Position numbers and translations under genes: made by a program. A stretch of 33,401 nucleotides of DNA. It comes from a virus. Position 1 is the stretch's first letter. The number at the start of each line of letters is the position of its first letter. Below are positions 2,288 through 26,195 of the stretch, in pieces. The notes under the pieces were generated by a model that was given only the letters and a program-made list of their open reading frames with translations, did no database searches and was not told where the DNA came from. The stretch lies in IMG/VR virus record IMGVR_UViG_3300015264_000041, positions 1 through 33,401 of that record; one strand, written 5' to 3'.

Positions 2288-2770
2288 GTGGCCATCATCG
2301 AATGCGCCTGCCCGTGTGGCAAGGGGTTCACGGCTAAGTCATCGGATGTCGCCCGAGGCGGAGGCAAGTACTGCTCCCCTGCCTGTTACTACCGGTTCGT
2401 CAGGGACGCGGCGCGTTCGGACTGGAAGGGCGACGAGGTCAGCTATGCAGGACTCCACCAGTGGGTTCGTCGCCTCAAGGGGGCACCCGCCTGCTGTGAG
2501 TTCTGCGGTGCAACCGAGAGCCTGGAATGGGCCAACATATCGGGTGAGTACCTGCGCGAGCCCGCCGATTGGATGTCGCTTTGCGTGCCATGCCATCGGC
2601 GTTACGACAGGGACAAGCGCTTGACCTGTCAGCGAGGGCATCCCTGGACGCCTGAGAACACCAGGGTTAAAGCGTCAGGCTGGCGGAGTTGCCGCACCTG
2701 CGCGAGAGAGGCAAGGCGCAGGCGTTACCAGCGGGGCAGGGAGAATGGCCGTGCACCAAGAAGCCTATGA
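2288..2770 (+). CDS. HNH homing-endonuclease-like protein
   Basis: 160 residues from GTG 2288, preceded by AAGGAG. Paired cysteines suggest several zinc knuckles: C6/C8/C10 with C29/C33, C70/C73 with C99/C102, and C114 with C135/C138. The segment CEFCGATESLEWANISGEY followed by LCVPCHRRYD matches the phage HNH variety that has WANISG in place of the classical first His pair. Such proteins are usually free-standing homing endonucleases. Base composition is lower in GC than the neighbours and the gene has its own AT-rich leader, consistent with insertion between the glycosyltransferase and the methyltransferase. It overlaps the next gene by 26 bases. Confidence 0.75.
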   Translation: MAIIECACPCGKGFTAKSSDVARGGGKYCSPACYYRFVRDAARSDWKGDEVSYAGLHQWVRRLKGAPACCEFCGATESLEWANISGEYLREPADWMSLCVPCHRRYDRDKRLTCQRGHPWTPENTRVKASGWRSCRTCAREARRRRYQRGRENGRAPRSL

Positions 2771-3290
2771 GTGGGTAGCAAAGTACGCCACGGATGACGC
2801 GATTAGCGTCCTTGACATCGGCGGCCGCTCGATCAACGGCTCCGTGCGCCCGCTGTTCCCCGCCGCCACCCGCTACACGGTCCTGGACGCGCTGCCCGGC
2901 GAGCGGGTCACTGACGTTGACATCATCGCCGACGCCGCCACCTGGAATCCGTCCGGCCAGTGGTGGGACGTGGTGGTCTGCGCGGAGGTGCTGGAGCACG
3001 CCGCCTCCTGGCGGGCGATCCTGCGCACCGCGTACGCGGCGTGCGCGCCGGCCGGCCGGCTTATCGTCACCACCGCCGCGCCTGGCCGGCCGCCGCACTC
3101 GGCGGTGGACGGGGAGCTCCGGCTGCTGCCCGGCGAGCATTACGCGAACATCCGCCCGGCCGAGCTGGAGCGGGCGCTGACGGCGGCGGGGTGGGCCGAG
3201 GTGGTGACGGACGTGCGGGAGTTCCCTGCCGACGTGCGCGCGACGGCGGTGAAGGCCGCCAGGGACGCAGGGCCGGGCGGTGAGGCGTGA
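2745..3290 (+). CDS. Class I SAM-dependent methyltransferase
   Basis: 181 residues from ATG 2745. Motif I is VLDIGGR (residues 22-28), a slightly degenerate GxGxG loop. An acidic residue follows strand 2 (TVLDALPG), and CAEVLEHA (79-86) is the usual motif II/post-II of Methyltransf_11/23 families. Length is normal for a stand-alone domain. The substrate is unknown. It lies beside a glycosyltransferase in a virion-gene cassette, so it may modify a sugar or a virion protein rather than DNA; no DNA-target domain is visible. The stop overlaps the next GTG by four bases. Confidence 0.8.
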   Translation: MAVHQEAYEWVAKYATDDAISVLDIGGRSINGSVRPLFPAATRYTVLDALPGERVTDVDIIADAATWNPSGQWWDVVVCAEVLEHAASWRAILRTAYAACAPAGRLIVTTAAPGRPPHSAVDGELRLLPGEHYANIRPAELERALTAAGWAEVVTDVREFPADVRATAVKAARDAGPGGEA

Positions 3291-8004: not shown

Positions 8005-8487
8005 ATGGCCCCCACGCCGCTGACCGCCACGACCCGGTACACCCCGCCGGGGAACCGGAAGTACTACTGGATCACCGCCGCCGTCGCCTACGCCACCCCG
8101 ACCCGGGCGGAGATCAACGCGGGCATTGACCTGACCGCCGAGGTCGAGTCGGTCAACGGGTTCACCCTGACGGGCAACAGCGCGGACACCCCGGACCTGG
8201 CGACCGGGTTCGTGGGGCAGGTCCCGGCGCGGGTCACCGCCGCCGACAGCGAGATCGTGTTCTGGGCGTCCTCGACGTCGGCGGACGCCCGCACCGTGTT
8301 CACGCGCGGTACCGCCGGGTTCGTGATCATCCTGCCGGAGGGCGATATCCCGACGCAGAAGATGGAGATCTGGCCGGCGAAGGTCAAGTCGATGTTCGTC
8401 GACCCCAGCATCGAGGACCCGGCGAAGGTCCACGTGCAGTTCAGCATCACGAAGATCCCCGCGCAGAACTCCACTATTCCGGCGTGA
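8005..8487 (+). CDS. Major tail (tube) protein
   Basis: 160 residues from ATG 8005. The features fit a siphovirus tail tube subunit: an RYTPPGNRKYYWI opening, DLTAEVESVNGFTL early, a middle RTVFTRGTAGFVIILPEGD and a strand-rich end KVHVQFSITKIPAQN. It directly precedes the frameshifting chaperone pair, the conserved place for the tube gene. It forms the tail tube by hexamer stacking around the tape measure. Confidence 0.75.
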   Translation: MAPTPLTATTRYTPPGNRKYYWITAAVAYATPTRAEINAGIDLTAEVESVNGFTLTGNSADTPDLATGFVGQVPARVTAADSEIVFWASSTSADARTVFTRGTAGFVIILPEGDIPTQKMEIWPAKVKSMFVDPSIEDPAKVHVQFSITKIPAQNSTIPA

Positions 8488-20156: not shown

Positions 20157-20624
20157 TCACTCTCCCTCGTGCGGGCCAAGGCAGTCCGCCATGCCCCGCC
20201 AGTAGGCCTTGCAGCCGTATCTGGGGCACTCGCGGTTGCCGCAGGTGCCCGGCTCGTGCGACTCGCCCCGGGGCCGCGGCTTGCCCGCCCGTGCCTTCGC
20301 TGCCGCCTTTCGCGCCCGGTCGCGGGCGCGCCGCGCGGCGGCTGCCTCCTTGCGCCTGGCCGCCCTGGCTGCCGTGGCCGTCTTCCGCTTGCGCCGCCGC
20401 TCGGCCGTGGCGGCCTTCCGCTTGCGGGCCTTGAAGTCGGTCCGCTGACGGCAGGCGTGCCGCAGGCCCCGGCCGGCGCCGCACGTCCCGCACGTCCAGG
20501 TGACCGGATTCCGCAGGGTGGTGCGCCGACGACGGCGCCGGGCGGGTGAGCACAGGTGAGCGCCGAGGCCGCGCGGCTTCCCGCACGCCCCGCAGCGCAA
20601 GGCCCCCTCCAGCTTCAACCCCAT
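20157..20624 (-). CDS. Basic zinc-ribbon protein of mobile-element type
   Basis: 155 residues from ATG 20624, with GGAGGA upstream. The protein has an N-terminal CGACGKPRG and CGTCGAGRG knuckles, then QRTDFKARKRKA leading into a long Arg/Lys/Ala helix, and finally CGNRECPRYGCKAYWRGM. The very basic middle suggests nucleic-acid binding. Related layouts are common next to FtsK/TraB genes of actinomycete conjugative elements (from memory). It is separated from the ATPase gene by the repeat cluster. Confidence 0.6.
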   Translation of the reverse strand: MGLKLEGALRCGACGKPRGLGAHLCSPARRRRRRTTLRNPVTWTCGTCGAGRGLRHACRQRTDFKARKRKAATAERRRKRKTATAARAARRKEAAAARRARDRARKAAAKARAGKPRPRGESHEPGTCGNRECPRYGCKAYWRGMADCLGPHEGE

Positions 20625-20697
20625 GGGGGCGGCGTCCTCCGTCGTCGTCGCTCACTGGGCTGCCCGCGCGGAACCGCAGGTCAGCAGGCCACCGGGG

Positions 20698-20811
20698 CGC
20701 GGCACGCCCCGCGGCACGGGCGCCGATGTGCCGCGCCACGGGACGTTTACGCAGGTCATCGCGTGCCGCGCCAGCGCGGCACATGTGGCGCGGCCTCATG
20801 GCCGTGCCGCC
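20698..20811. repeat. Cluster of 8-bp repeat CGCGGCAC (candidate clt-like locus)
   Basis: Perfect copies of CGCGGCAC occur at 20698-20705, 20710-20717 and 20775-20782. Its complement GTGCCGCG is at 20728-20735 and 20763-20770, and a 7-of-8 copy (GTGCCGCC) at 20804-20811. The copies at 20763 and 20775 extend into an inverted repeat GTGCCGCGC/GCGCGGCAC. The cluster lies mainly in the 171-bp gap between the translocase stop (20796) and the next leftward gene. TraB-type translocases recognise short 8-bp repeats in such positions, so this is a candidate recognition site. Confidence 0.6.
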
Positions 20812-22922
20812 CCGGTTAGGTCGGCCTTCTTGCAGCCCTTCCGGTTGGTGCCGGAGCGGCCGGGAGGCCACCGGATATCGGTGCTGGGGATGCCACGGGC
20901 CCGCGCTGCGGCGCTGACGGACTCGGCGGTGGCGTCCGCGTGCCGTGCGGGGAGCTGCCCGGCGAGCCGTTCGGCCGCCGTGTCCCACCAGAGGCCAGCG
21001 TCGCCGTTCATCACCGACAGCAGGTCGGCCACGATGTCGGATTCCTCGTCGCCGAGGCCGGCGCCCAGGGCGTCACCGGACAGCGTGCGCGCCTTGTCCC
21101 GGATCTTCCGCGCGGCCCGGCAGATCACCTCAGCGTCCTCGCCGTCCGCGAGGTAGGTCCGCACCGTGGGCGCGTCGTCGGTGAGGCCGTACAGGATCCC
21201 GATGCCCTTGAACTCATCGCCCAGCGGCAGGCCCGAGGCGTCGTAGCCCTCGCCGTAAGCCTCGTTGCCGAGCACGGCGTTTGACACGTCGCGGGTGGCG
21301 CACCGTAGCGCGAACCGGGCGATGAAGTTGTCGCGGAAGCGGTTGAACAGCCGCTGCACGTCACCCGCGCCTACCCCGGCAGGCTTCTGGGACGCTCCCA
21401 CGAGGATCACGCCGGCGGACGGGCCGAGCGCGCCGATCCGCGCGAACAGGTTCGCGAACTCCTTGTTCAGCTTCTGGTCGTCCAGCTCGAAGTAGCACTG
21501 GAACTCTTCCAGCAGTACCAGCTGCACGTGCAGGTCAGGCCGCTTGTACAGCTTCTCCGTGAGCTTGCCCTCGGGGCACTCCGACACGGGCAGCCTGGCC
21601 AGCTCCTCATTGACGTGGACGATGTGCCGGTCAAGCTCGCGCAGCGCGGCGAGGGCGCGCTGCACGGGGTCGCCGTCCTTGGTGGGGTGGGTGCCCTGGA
21701 TGAACTGGTGCGCGACGAGCTTCAGCGGCTGCCAGTCCTTCGACGACTTCCCGTCGATCAGCGTGATGTCAACCCACGGGTCAAGCGCGGCGAACAGCGC
21801 GATCAGCCGGGCCGCGAAAGTCTTGCCGCGCCTCGGCTGGGCGCCGACCAGCAGCGAGATCCACAGCAGGCAGAACGCGACCTTGCGGCCGAACTGGTCC
21901 AGCCCGAACGGCGCCTTGCGCCAGATCGACCGCTGCTTGCAGTCCAGTAGCGGCGTCCGCCCGGCGCGCTCGGACAGCGGGTCATCGTCGAGTACCCGCA
22001 GCGTGTGACGTCGTTCCGACTTCTTGTCCTTAGTGAAGTACACCTGGCTTTCGGCCACGTCCAGGCCGGAGGCAATCCTGGTCTTGGCGTTGACCACCGT
22101 GGCGAAGGTGCCCCCGTACGGGAGGTAGACCACGACCTCGCTGCTCTTGCCGAGCGCGTCGCGGGCCATCGTGGAGCCGAACCCGAGGTGCTCGGCGGGC
22201 TTCTTCGGGTCGGCGGAGCACAGGCCGGCCGTGGAGTAGGCGCGGATGATGGCGTCGGTGGAGACCTTCCGCACGAGCGGCGCCGTCACCGCCGAGGAGA
22301 CGATCGGCCGGTGGGCGGGCCGGCCGTAGCGGGCGAGCGGCGGCATGACCACCGCGGCGATGATCGGCCACCACCACCACGGCGCGAGGGCGAGCAGGAG
22401 CACGAGCGTGAGCAGGAGCGCGAACGCCTCGGCGCCGATCACCGCGCCCCGCCACCCCCGGGTCTTGCGCCCGGTCGCGTGCAGCGCCCGCCACTCCGGG
22501 GAGTTGCCGTCCACGACGGCCTTGGACCGCAGGAACGACGTTTCCGTGAGCCACCACCAGTCACGCTGAGCCTTGGCGGCCTTGGCGGCGCCGACGATCG
22601 CCCACAGCGCGCACATGAGCAGGTAGAACGGTATGCGGAGCAGGTGGAACAGGGCGTGGAACCGGGCGGCGTCCAGGTGCTTCCCGGCGGTGCGCCTGAT
22701 GCCCTCCCAAGTGCGCAGGTGCTCCGGGATTATTGGCCGGCGTTCCCCGCCGAGCGGGGGCATCTCGATGCCGTCGCCGCCGTGGACCGGCTCAGGCTTA
22801 GGGGCGGCCTCGTCGAGGGCGTGCTCGAACGAGGTGTCGCGCGGTACCAGGTGCAGTTCTGGCGGCGGCGTGATCTCGTCGTCCTGCGCGCCGTCACCCG
22901 GGGCGTGCGGTGCCGTTGTCAT
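20796..22922 (-). CDS. FtsK/SpoIIIE-type DNA translocase, TraB/TraSA conjugation family
   Basis: 708 residues from ATG 22922, in an ATGA overlap with the upstream gene; the longer frame to 23063 is not needed. The N-terminal third has membrane stretches (FHLLRIPFYLLMCALWAIVG and AFALLLTLVLLLALAPWWWW). Walker A is GAQPRRGKT with Lys367; Walker B is VQLVLLEEF (E472/E473). The C-terminus has a winged-helix-like domain ending SGTNRKGCKKADL, typical of TraB/TraSA proteins that move double-stranded DNA between mycelial cells. This is a conjugation rather than packaging ATPase, since phage terminases look different. It is the core of a leftward operon with small membrane proteins upstream and zinc-ribbon genes downstream. 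Confidence 0.85.
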   Translation of the reverse strand: MTTAPHAPGDGAQDDEITPPPELHLVPRDTSFEHALDEAAPKPEPVHGGDGIEMPPLGGERRPIIPEHLRTWEGIRRTAGKHLDAARFHALFHLLRIPFYLLMCALWAIVGAAKAAKAQRDWWWLTETSFLRSKAVVDGNSPEWRALHATGRKTRGWRGAVIGAEAFALLLTLVLLLALAPWWWWPIIAAVVMPPLARYGRPAHRPIVSSAVTAPLVRKVSTDAIIRAYSTAGLCSADPKKPAEHLGFGSTMARDALGKSSEVVVYLPYGGTFATVVNAKTRIASGLDVAESQVYFTKDKKSERRHTLRVLDDDPLSERAGRTPLLDCKQRSIWRKAPFGLDQFGRKVAFCLLWISLLVGAQPRRGKTFAARLIALFAALDPWVDITLIDGKSSKDWQPLKLVAHQFIQGTHPTKDGDPVQRALAALRELDRHIVHVNEELARLPVSECPEGKLTEKLYKRPDLHVQLVLLEEFQCYFELDDQKLNKEFANLFARIGALGPSAGVILVGASQKPAGVGAGDVQRLFNRFRDNFIARFALRCATRDVSNAVLGNEAYGEGYDASGLPLGDEFKGIGILYGLTDDAPTVRTYLADGEDAEVICRAARKIRDKARTLSGDALGAGLGDEESDIVADLLSVMNGDAGLWWDTAAERLAGQLPARHADATAESVSAAARARGIPSTDIRWPPGRSGTNRKGCKKADLTGAARP

Positions 22923-23110
22923 CCTGGCTCCACCCGCCATCCGAGGGACCGGGCGATCCCGGCCGCGATCACGCCCAGGGCGGCCGCCTCCGCGCCGAGC
23001 ACGAAGACAGCGGCGGGCACCGGGCCGGCCAGCGGGACGCTGACGTGCAGCGTGCACAGCCACAGCAGGCCGAGGACGGCCACGACGGCGATCTTCGCCC
23101 GGCGGCTCAT
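22919..23110 (-). CDS. Small two-span membrane protein
   Basis: 63 residues from ATG 23110, overlapping both neighbours as ATGA. Two hydrophobic segments, AKIAVVAVLGLLWLC (5-19) and AAVFVLGAEAAALGVIAAGI (33-52). Tight coupling to the translocase gene suggests a partner in transfer or spread, comparable with the small Spd membrane proteins of Streptomyces plasmids (analogy only). Confidence 0.6.
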   Translation of the reverse strand: MSRRAKIAVVAVLGLLWLCTLHVSVPLAGPVPAAVFVLGAEAAALGVIAAGIARSLGWRVEPG

Positions 23111-23802
23111 GGCGCGCTCCCGTTCAGCGCGGGCTCCGGGGCGCCCTGCGCCATGACCCTGTCAGCCGCGCCGCGGGTCAGCCCGAACCGGGCCATCAGC
23201 TGATTGCGCGACAGCGGGTTGCCCGCCGCGATAGTGGCCCGCAATGAGGCCGCCGCCGCGCTCTCGGCGTCGGACGGGGTGACGGCGATAGCATGCTCAC
23301 CAGCGGGCTCCTGCGGGATCAGCTCCGGGGCGGCCTCCGGCTCAGGCTCAGGCTCGCCGGAGCGCAGCAGGTGCGCCAGCCCGGCGCCGAAGCCGAGCAC
23401 GGCCACCGGCATGCAGGCGACCGCGACGACGACCGGCCACGGGGCGCGCTGCGCGTGCGCGGCGGCCAGCAGGTGGAAGACGACCTGGCCGCTCATCCCG
23501 AGCAGCAGCGAGCCGATAGCGGAGCGCCGGGCGAACCTGCGGGCGCGGCCGGGGATCATGTCCGGGCGCAGCCACACGCCGAGCGCGTACGCCCCGTACG
23601 CCTCGACGCCGACGGGCAGCGTGATCGCGGTGTCCAGGTGCCAGGAGGCGATGCCGGGGAAGGGCTGCACGAGGCCGAACCCGCACAGGGCGCCGAGCCC
23701 GACCCAGCCTGACCAGATGGCGACGGCGGCGGGCGCCGCGATCGCTATCAGCGGCCAGCGGTTGCCGCTGGCGGGGGCGCGGGGGATGCCGTTAGGGTTC
23801 AC
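23107..23802 (-). CDS. Multi-span membrane protein of actinomycete mobile elements with C-terminal helix-turn-helix
   Basis: 231 residues from GTG 23802, with AGGAAGAGG upstream. The N-terminal 150 residues form about four hydrophobic spans: WPLIAIAAPAAVAIWSGWVG, DTAITLPVGVEAYGAYALGV, SAIGSLLLGMSGQVVFHLLA and VVVAVACMPVAVLGFGAGL. This resembles a DUF2637-like protein often coded beside FtsK/TraB genes in AICEs (from memory). A Glu/Pro linker leads to NPLSRNQLMARFGLTRGAAD, a winged-helix-like segment. It is the first gene of the leftward operon and probably a membrane part of the transfer apparatus. Confidence 0.65.
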   Translation of the reverse strand: MNPNGIPRAPASGNRWPLIAIAAPAAVAIWSGWVGLGALCGFGLVQPFPGIASWHLDTAITLPVGVEAYGAYALGVWLRPDMIPGRARRFARRSAIGSLLLGMSGQVVFHLLAAAHAQRAPWPVVVAVACMPVAVLGFGAGLAHLLRSGEPEPEPEAAPELIPQEPAGEHAIAVTPSDAESAAAASLRATIAAGNPLSRNQLMARFGLTRGAADRVMAQGAPEPALNGSAP

Positions 23803-24289: not shown

Positions 24290-25738
24290 TCACGCGGTCT
24301 CCACGCGCACGTCCTGCTCGCGGAACCCGGGTCCCCGCCTGCTGGCGGGCAGGACGGTCACCGTCACCGTCGCCCGCGCCAGCGCCCGGCGCACGTCCAG
24401 CGGCAGGTCAAGGAACCCCGGCAGCGTGATGCCCTGGTACTGGCGCAGCAGGCGCTCCCGCTCGGACGTGCCGGCCAGCGCCCGCAGCTCCGCCATCCGC
24501 GCGTCGAGCTGGTCGAGCTGCCGCATCAGCGTGCGGGTGCGGCCCGCGCTGGACCGGTAGTCATCGAGGAGCGAGTCGACCTCGGCGCGCTGCTGCTCCA
24601 GCGCCGCCCACTCGGCCGCGTGCCCGGGATCGGCGGGCAGCGCAGCCGGGGGGTTGGCCTCGTCGGCGAGCGCGGCGACGACATAGGCGGACACGTAGGC
24701 GTCCAGGTGGACGGCGGACCGGTCGAGGCGATGGCAGCGGGAGCAGGAGTAGACCGGCCGGTTGTCCCCGGTGCGGCTGGACCGCATCAGTCCGCCGCAC
24801 TCCGTCCCGTCGCCGCCGGGGACGCCGCAGCGGGCGATGCCGGCCAGCAGCCAGCGGCGCGCGGACGTCGCCTTCGGGTTGGCGCCGCCGCGGGCGTCCA
24901 GGACCAGGCGCAGCCGTTCCCATTCCTCGCGTTCCAGCACCGGCTCCCACGCCGCGCGGCTCGCGCCGTCGGGCATCAGCCCGGCCAGCCGCGGGCGCCG
25001 CAGCATCTTGGCCAGGCTGTCGTGCGTCCACGCGTTCCCGGCGGGAGTGCGGTGGCCCGCGGCGGACAGCTCGCGGGCCACGGACGTGACCGACCGGCCG
25101 GCCAGCAGCCGCCGCGCCGCCTCGCGGATCACGTCGGCCTCGGACACCTGCGCGCGGGTGGCGACGTCGCACCGGTCGGGCGGGGCGATCGTCACGCCGT
25201 CCGTGGCGAACCCGTACGACCTGCCGCCGCGGCCCCCGGTCACCGTGCGGCCCTCGCGGCGCCACCGCTCCAGCTGGGCCTTCTTGCGGCGGCTGGAGTC
25301 ATCGCTTGCCTTGCACGCCTGCGCGGCCTCGATGCGCAGGATGAACCGGTCGTCGGCGTTGTCAAGGTCGCGGGTGCCGGTGACGGAGATGACGCGGATG
25401 CCCTTGCTCTCGGCGAGCCGCAGCAGGACCTCCAGGTCCCACGGCTGCCTGATCAGGCGATCGCCGTGGTAGACGATGATGACGTCGATCAGCCCGGCCT
25501 CGATGTCGGCGAGCATGGCGTCCCAGCCGGGGCGCTTGCGGTCGCGCCGCCACGCGCTCTTGTTGTTGTCGCAGTAGACCCGCACGACGCGCAGGACGCG
25601 GGCCGCGGCGATGTCCCTGCTGATGCGCTCCTGGTCGGCCACCTTCGTCTGGTCGTCGTCCAGGACGTAGCTCATCCGCGTGTAGATGCCGGCCCTGAGG
25701 CCGGCGTCAGGCGCCGGTGGCGCTGGCCCAGCTGCCAT
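24290..25738 (-). CDS. int: Large serine recombinase (phage integrase)
   Basis: 482 residues from ATG 25738; the extra 49 codons upstream are out-of-context shadow. The N-terminal resolvase domain begins AGIYTRMSYVLDDD with likely nucleophile Ser23, followed by DRLIRQPWDLEVLLR. A recombinase domain follows (SVARELSAAGHRTPAG, AWTHDSLAKMLRRP). A zinc ribbon has Cys near 304, 313, 332 and 335, and a coiled coil (EQQRAEVDSLLDDYRSSAG) precedes the C-terminus. These are the parts of large serine integrases that recombine attP with attB. No clear ribosome site is seen, and the gene overlaps the MmpS-like gene end by 32 bases, suggesting cotranscription. Confidence 0.9.
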   Translation of the reverse strand: MAAGPAPPAPDAGLRAGIYTRMSYVLDDDQTKVADQERISRDIAAARVLRVVRVYCDNNKSAWRRDRKRPGWDAMLADIEAGLIDVIIVYHGDRLIRQPWDLEVLLRLAESKGIRVISVTGTRDLDNADDRFILRIEAAQACKASDDSSRRKKAQLERWRREGRTVTGGRGGRSYGFATDGVTIAPPDRCDVATRAQVSEADVIREAARRLLAGRSVTSVARELSAAGHRTPAGNAWTHDSLAKMLRRPRLAGLMPDGASRAAWEPVLEREEWERLRLVLDARGGANPKATSARRWLLAGIARCGVPGGDGTECGGLMRSSRTGDNRPVYSCSRCHRLDRSAVHLDAYVSAYVVAALADEANPPAALPADPGHAAEWAALEQQRAEVDSLLDDYRSSAGRTRTLMRQLDQLDARMAELRALAGTSERERLLRQYQGITLPGFLDLPLDVRRALARATVTVTVLPASRRGPGFREQDVRVETA

Positions 25739-26195
25739 CTGCGGTCCGGACGATCTCGCACTGGGCGATGTGGTAATCCCCGCTGGCGGTAGCCTGCGAG
25801 ACCACGTAGCCGTCAATCCCGATCTGGCAGGTGACGCTGCCGCCGTAGTCCTGCAGCTGGGCGGTGATCGCGTAGTAGGGCGCATCGCCGAGCGGGACGG
25901 TCTCCTTCATCGGGTCGCTGCCGGACAGCTGGCTTCCCGCCGGGCCGTAGGTGACGTCGGCCACGCTGCCGCCAACGTAGTAGGTCACGGTGTGGCCGCC
26001 GGCGGGTGAGCCGCCGCCGTGCCCCCGCGTGATCATGACGGCGAAAAGGGCGGCGATGATCGCGGCTGCGGTGACGGCGACGGCGACGACGGTGAGCGCG
26101 CGGCCGGGTCTCCCGTCCGGGCCGCCCGGTGGCCGTGACGGGGGTTGCTGTGGTGAGTGCTGTGGTGGCTGCTGACTGTAGGTGCCGGGGGGCAT
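25707..26195 (-). CDS. MmpS-like membrane protein, likely lysogenic cargo
   Basis: 162 residues from ATG 26195, with AAGGAG upstream. A Pro/Gln/Gly-rich cytoplasmic N-terminus precedes one membrane helix (about residues 34-55, LTVVAVAVTAAAIIAALFAV). The outer domain has HTVTYYVGG, ADVTYGPAG, YYAITAQLQDYGGSVTCQI and QCEIVRTADGSW, the MmpS-type beta fold of actinobacteria. MmpS proteins accompany MmpL transporters in mycobacteria, but lone copies of unclear role are widespread. Placement between integrase and repressor is typical of a moron expressed in lysogeny. Confidence 0.65.
   Translation of the reverse strand: MPPGTYSQQPPQHSPQQPPSRPPGGPDGRPGRALTVVAVAVTAAAIIAALFAVMITRGHGGGSPAGGHTVTYYVGGSVADVTYGPAGSQLSGSDPMKETVPLGDAPYYAITAQLQDYGGSVTCQIGIDGYVVSQATASGDYHIAQCEIVRTADGSWASATGA

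Follow-up and report, generated by a model that had tools for sequence, protein, structure and literature searches.

Described systems close to the locus analysed here include those of Streptomyces plasmids, and an 8-bp type of TRS has been described for the TraB translocase (PMC3583192, PMC4170104). TraB of pSVH1 from Streptomyces venezuelae is an FtsK-type membrane translocase with a C-terminal winged helix, and a cluster of the 8-bp repeat GACCCGGA (8158-8256) starts about 16 bp after the tra stop codon. In pWTY27, clt comprises the final 16 bp of traA together with a further 159 bp and contains four 7-bp repeats as well as inverted repeats; TraA produced a footprint on clt, and the array at the 3' end of tra was needed in cis for transfer (PMC3583192). 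For pSAM2, no clt motif had been described (PMC9513070). According to papers in which it is cited (PMC5431353, PMC3583192), the Streptomyces plasmid-phage pZL12 combines plasmid transfer with a lytic cycle. No record identifiable as pZL12 was present among the translocase matches in the plasmid or phage collections. We know of no TRS array in pZL12/phiZL12 or in Nonomuraea PhiNon1. Short motifs read by the C-terminal winged helix of an FtsK-family pump are also represented by FtsK KOPS and the SpoIIIE recognition sequences, which are polar and spread over the chromosome.

The DNA analysed (the window) was the IMG/VR virus record IMGVR_UViG_3300015264_000041, positions 1-33,401, a stretch of 33,401 bp with a GC content of 71%. 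It encodes a major tail protein, tail assembly chaperone, tape measure protein and endolysin, a serine integrase (24290-25885), a repressor-like HTH protein and YqaJ/RecT recombination proteins, with the translocase gene located on the minus strand between the integrase and the lysis region. No large terminase was recognised in the 33-kb contig; of 34 relative records, 5 contained the TerL family PF03354, and the records of two of the closest relatives (L017 and L019) were among them. None of the window ORFs scanned with Pfam represented a replication module (RepSA, RepAM or prim-pol), and the contig may be partial. As a phage marker, the tape-measure profile phrog_167 was unspecific because it matched every control genome. 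The window element appears to be a temperate actinomycete phage with a conjugation-type DNA pump; some of its metagenomic relatives may be integrative elements and not phages. Glycosyltransferase and SAM-dependent methyltransferase genes were noted at the left contig end, before the tail genes (762-2207 and 2745-3290).

The window has in common with pSVH1 an FtsK-type membrane translocase with a predicted C-terminal winged helix and an 8-bp repeat cluster behind its gene, but it differs in the motif, in being a piece of a phage genome and not a small plasmid, and in the translocase sequence (only about 29% identity over the motor). Repeats combined with inverted repeats at the 3' end of tra are found in both the window and pWTY27, whereas the latter is a theta plasmid with the motif TGACACC, for which binding has been shown; for the window, binding is only inferred. 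The pair of proteins encoded by actinomycete integrative and conjugative elements (AICEs) such as pSAM2, a site-specific integrase and a single FtsK-type Tra protein, is present on the window contig, but so are phage structural genes, and no AICE replication gene was recognised. Like pZL12/phiZL12 and PhiNon1, the window is a phage genome with plasmid traits. KOPS and SpoIIIE sequences resemble the locus in the use of short motifs and of an FtsK-family winged-helix reader, which for the window is predicted.

A preliminary description of this DNA had reported five perfect copies of an 8-mer, three in one orientation and two in the opposite one, accompanied by near copies and lying mainly in the gap after the translocase stop. 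The exact positions of CGCGGCAC (20698-20782) agree with this in every respect (Table 1). As the translocase stop codon occupies 20796-20798, all five exact copies fall in the intergenic gap of 171 bp that extends to the next gene (20624), and one of the four one-mismatch sites lies in the last translocase codons. Together, these nine sites compare with about 0.63 expected per 150 bp from the window's own frequency. The 9-bp inverted repeat, also mentioned before, was located at 20763-20782 and reads GTGCCGCGC-CA-GCGCGGCAC.

Table 1. Positions of the repeat sites and adjoining genes in the window.
Feature	Position	Strand	Remarks
Repeat array, proposed clt-like locus	20667..20811	.	9 sites with at most 1 mismatch from CGCGGCAC; conserved in L017-L020
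One-mismatch copy CGCGGAAC, weak	20667..20674	+	not clearly conserved
Exact CGCGGCAC	20698..20705	+	invariant in L017-L020
Exact CGCGGCAC	20710..20717	+	invariant in L017-L020
Exact CGCGGCAC	20728..20735	-	invariant in L017-L020
One-mismatch copy	20732..20739		overlaps an exact copy
Exact CGCGGCAC, left arm of 9-bp inverted repeat	20763..20770	-	invariant in L017-L020
Exact CGCGGCAC, right arm of 9-bp inverted repeat	20775..20782	+	invariant in L017-L020
One-mismatch copy CGCGCCAC	20785..20792	-	exact motif in L017-L020
One-mismatch copy GGCGGCAC, in last translocase codons	20804..20811	-	exact motif in L018-L020
Translocase gene	20796..22922	-	phrog_1358, AlphaFold/Foldseek FtsK motor, actinomycete plasmid FtsK/TraB homologues
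C-terminal winged-helix codons, predicted repeat reader	20796..21065	-	AlphaFold models; segment exchanged with array, L033 vs L034
Small Cys-rich (zinc-ribbon-like) protein, downstream of array	20157..20624	-	tblastn 53-70% identity in L017-L020
DUF2637-like membrane protein, upstream of translocase	23107..23802	-	similarity to ORFs upstream of Tra

The count over the full window revealed no overall enrichment of CGCGGCAC (10 exact copies, 11.2 expected by shuffling) and a distribution that was far from even, half of the copies being packed into 85 bp. When every 8-mer of the window was scanned, CGCGGCAC formed the tightest cluster. Simulation of 180 windows with a Markov model never gave an 8-mer with five copies per 115 bp, the maximum being three in 169 windows and four in 11. 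A polar dispersed motif of the KOPS/SRS type was rejected, as CGCGGCAC was clustered, present on both strands and found at chance level elsewhere.

The locus was also compared with that of four viral contigs (L017-L020) encoding translocases 73-77% identical to that of the window. Each carries 6-7 exact copies of CGCGGCAC in the same place, and two near copies of the window are represented there by the exact motif (Table 1). In the intergenic part of the five-way alignment, 47 of 48 site columns were invariant versus 62 of 112 other columns (Fisher p=6e-9), i.e., the sites were kept where the spacers drifted. A cluster arising by chance or from base composition could be suspected because of the high GC content and the chance-level frequency of CGCGGCAC over the whole window, but such an origin is contradicted by the simulations and matched controls and refuted by the conservation in relatives, so that it can practically be ruled out.

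The translocase ORF extends over 20796-23063 on the minus strand, with the likely start at 22922. Its product matched phrog_1358 (FtsK/SpoIIIE-like, E 9e-17), and an AlphaFold model (mean pLDDT 81) matched the FtsK motor 6t8b in Foldseek (E 2.6e-15). The predicted structure comprises N-terminal membrane helices, the FtsK motor and a C-terminal part with winged-helix topology (residues 630-706, recognition helix about 666-675), the latter found in two AlphaFold models. The winged-helix model gave no significant match in PDB (best E 0.13), and the fold was assigned by predicted topology. The closest named relatives were FtsK/SpoIIIE proteins of actinomycete plasmids, including TraB of pSVH1; a phage collection of 50,697 records contained no match to the array region at the DNA level or to three family members at the protein level. 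DUF2637 proteins precede Tra in actinomycete plasmids, and the product of the gene upstream of the window translocase resembles them. Over about 120 aa it is as much as 66% identical to ORFs that lie before Tra in other loci, and it is similar to a pPaSha2 protein annotated as DUF2637 (E 2e-7). This Pseudonocardia replicon (CP052773.1, locus L009), a circular plasmid of 41.9 kb, carries its DUF2637-FtsK pair beside an annotated holin gene and is possibly another plasmid-phage.

An alignment-based scan yielded 71 viral loci. The positional analysis was performed for 67 non-redundant relatives chosen by protein alone and drawn from viral contigs, plasmids and one genus (mostly metagenomic contigs); in each, the copies in the best cluster of a 7-mer near the translocase stop were counted. 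At least four copies of one 7-mer were found near the stop in 50 of the 67 (about 75%) versus about 5% of random windows taken from the same loci and about 5% of other ORF ends; for 8-mers present in at least three copies, the corresponding values were 55 of 67 and about 10% of controls. The excess was limited to 200 bp at the translocase stop, and in loci with a cluster their own 7-mer was about 59-fold denser there than elsewhere in the same locus. No clear exact-repeat cluster was detected in about a fifth to a quarter of the relatives. As a positive control, the same scan recovered GACCCGGA, a match to the 8-bp TRS type of TraB, directly behind traB of pSVH1, and clusters behind tra were also detected in five further Streptomyces plasmids, including pSG5. 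The motif itself varied by lineage (CGCTACC, CCGCTAC, CGCGACC, GCGGAAC, CTAGCGC, CCTCTACC, GCTGACC and others).

The inverted repeat formed by part of the cluster had been considered unlike the mostly direct repeats of known clt sites, a view that needs correction. Sites on both strands were found in 63 of 63 relatives with at least six modelled sites, and since both strands are used as a rule, the mixed orientation in the window is normal; the strands are more evenly mixed there than in pSVH1, whose array also has opposite-strand copies. The site models came from a simple seeded EM procedure, and for this reason the exact-repeat counts are the firmer evidence. There was no support for a general conservation of site spacing among loci with different motifs (mean z about 0.5); it was clear in one subgroup only, in which seven loci with different motifs share a five-site geometry (12-10-8-13 or 12-8-10-11, strands --+-+) that occurred in none of 200 randomised sets.

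The inverted pairs could also be explained by an RNA element or a terminator forming hairpins at the end of the tra transcript, and the minus-strand RNA does fold well (-87.7 kcal/mol, z -2.6). However, opposite-strand copies of one motif form hairpins necessarily, many neighbouring copies share a strand, and from lineage to lineage the motif changes in all copies at once. With no T-tract terminator after the hairpin at the array and no Rfam match for the array region, this explanation is extremely unlikely.

Several other repeats were seen in the relatives. In L028, L029, L055, L085 and others, clusters of other 7-mers, unrelated to the 3' motif, were located between about -2800 and -2200 relative to the tra stop and might be repeats within the DUF2637 coding sequence or binding sites of a regulator. 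In a Phytohabitans draft (L002:4938-4992), a run of about 20 G and then one of about 22 C occur shortly behind the array, possibly as an assembly or sequencing artefact. A Streptomyces plasmid (L008:12465-12500) has five copies of TGACAGAA near replication-type genes, in an iteron-like arrangement.

Across the family, motif similarity rose with winged-helix identity (Mantel p=0.002), and the motif was shared by 75% of pairs with more than 70% winged-helix identity versus 2% of those below 40%. The motor was about as good a correlate of motif similarity as the winged helix was (0.35 vs 0.33), which means that phylogeny explains part of the relationship; the partial correlation of motif with winged helix given the motor was modest (0.19).

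The strongest evidence came from the comparison of L033:10449-13042 with L034:1-2661, two closely related viral contigs, and with L021, which belongs to a third lineage. The DNA of L033 and L034 is 93-100% identical until about 340 bp before the translocase stop and once more beyond about 350 bp downstream of it, whereas between these flanks, as far as about 250 bp past the stop, identity falls as low as 25-78%. L034 is instead 80-95% identical to L021 over the winged-helix codons and 62-85% over the array, but mostly 47-65% further upstream and beyond +350. Winged-helix identity between L034 and L021 is 0.94 versus 0.55 for the motor, and the two loci have the motif CGCTACC in common, whereas L033 has CGGAACG. 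Judged from these alignments, the L033/L034 difference is a natural swap in which the reader end of the translocase and the repeat sites were exchanged together. An assembly artefact is unlikely, though not excluded, given that each of the three records stems from a different metagenome and that the donor segment differs from the sequence of L021.

The swap also bears on whether the sites bind another protein encoded by the element, such as the zinc-ribbon protein, the DUF2637 membrane protein or a repressor. The candidate genes are linked to the array, and part of a small ORF downstream falls within or close to the interval in which L033 and L034 diverge and may belong to the swapped segment. 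Nevertheless, the coding part of the exchanged segment that can be clearly delimited encodes the translocase C-terminus, and repeats of this kind are known to be read by TraB/TraA proteins. The zinc-ribbon protein, moreover, is kept behind the array only in L017-L020 and is absent from other loci (tblastn), while arrays occur across the family. Binding by one of these other proteins is thus very unlikely.

The data support in silico the initial reading of the cluster as clt/TRS by its position 3' of a tra-type gene, as in pSVH1 and pWTY27, by its conservation, by the positional rule and by the co-exchange of winged helix and array. The array is probably a clt-like TRS locus of the adjoining translocase at which an FtsK/TraB-type pump is loaded; the binding itself, the loading of the ring and the transfer of phage DNA are inferences. 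That the translocase recognises the array can be inferred with high confidence, though without binding data. In the proposed mechanism, the C-terminal winged-helix domain of each subunit would read CGCGGCAC, and several subunits would be gathered by 6-8 sites that are spaced about 10-35 bp and occupy both strands. These may then nucleate a hexameric FtsK-like ring only on DNA bearing the array, and the membrane-anchored motor would pump the double-stranded phage genome, once excised, across a septum or into an adjacent cell or hypha, a step modelled on the action of TraB for Streptomyces plasmids.

The outcome is less certain. TraB-like transfer of double-stranded element DNA is considered likely, with moderate confidence and no mating data. 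The main rival accepts the same binding and assigns it to control of the tra operon or to DNA movement within the host, such as septum clearance or segregation of the excised prophage. All comparative evidence concerns recognition and not outcome, virions already spread a phage, and the array lies between the translocase gene and the next gene on the same strand. Operators, however, would be expected upstream of the promoter-proximal gene and not after the tra stop, and a role confined to the host is at odds with the requirement in cis for the 3' array in pWTY27 transfer (PMC3583192) and, as far as the citing papers describe it, with the combination of a lytic cycle and plasmid transfer in pZL12. 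Operon control or within-host movement is therefore rather unlikely, though a serious alternative to transfer.

At the level of the family, it may be proposed tentatively, with somewhat less than even confidence, that a broad group of temperate actinomycete phages carries an exchangeable "pump address" cassette. Such a cassette, made up of the winged-helix codons and the cognate array and recombined as a unit, would give each phage its own specificity of double-stranded DNA transfer and a second, virion-free way of spreading through the mycelium. The predicted pump address can be read from the sequence just behind the translocase stop, and dozens of predicted reader-site pairs, together with the array geometry and the natural domain swap, constitute a data set on DNA selection by winged helices. 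With this machinery placed on phage genomes, some actinophages might have a virion-free mode of spread as well.
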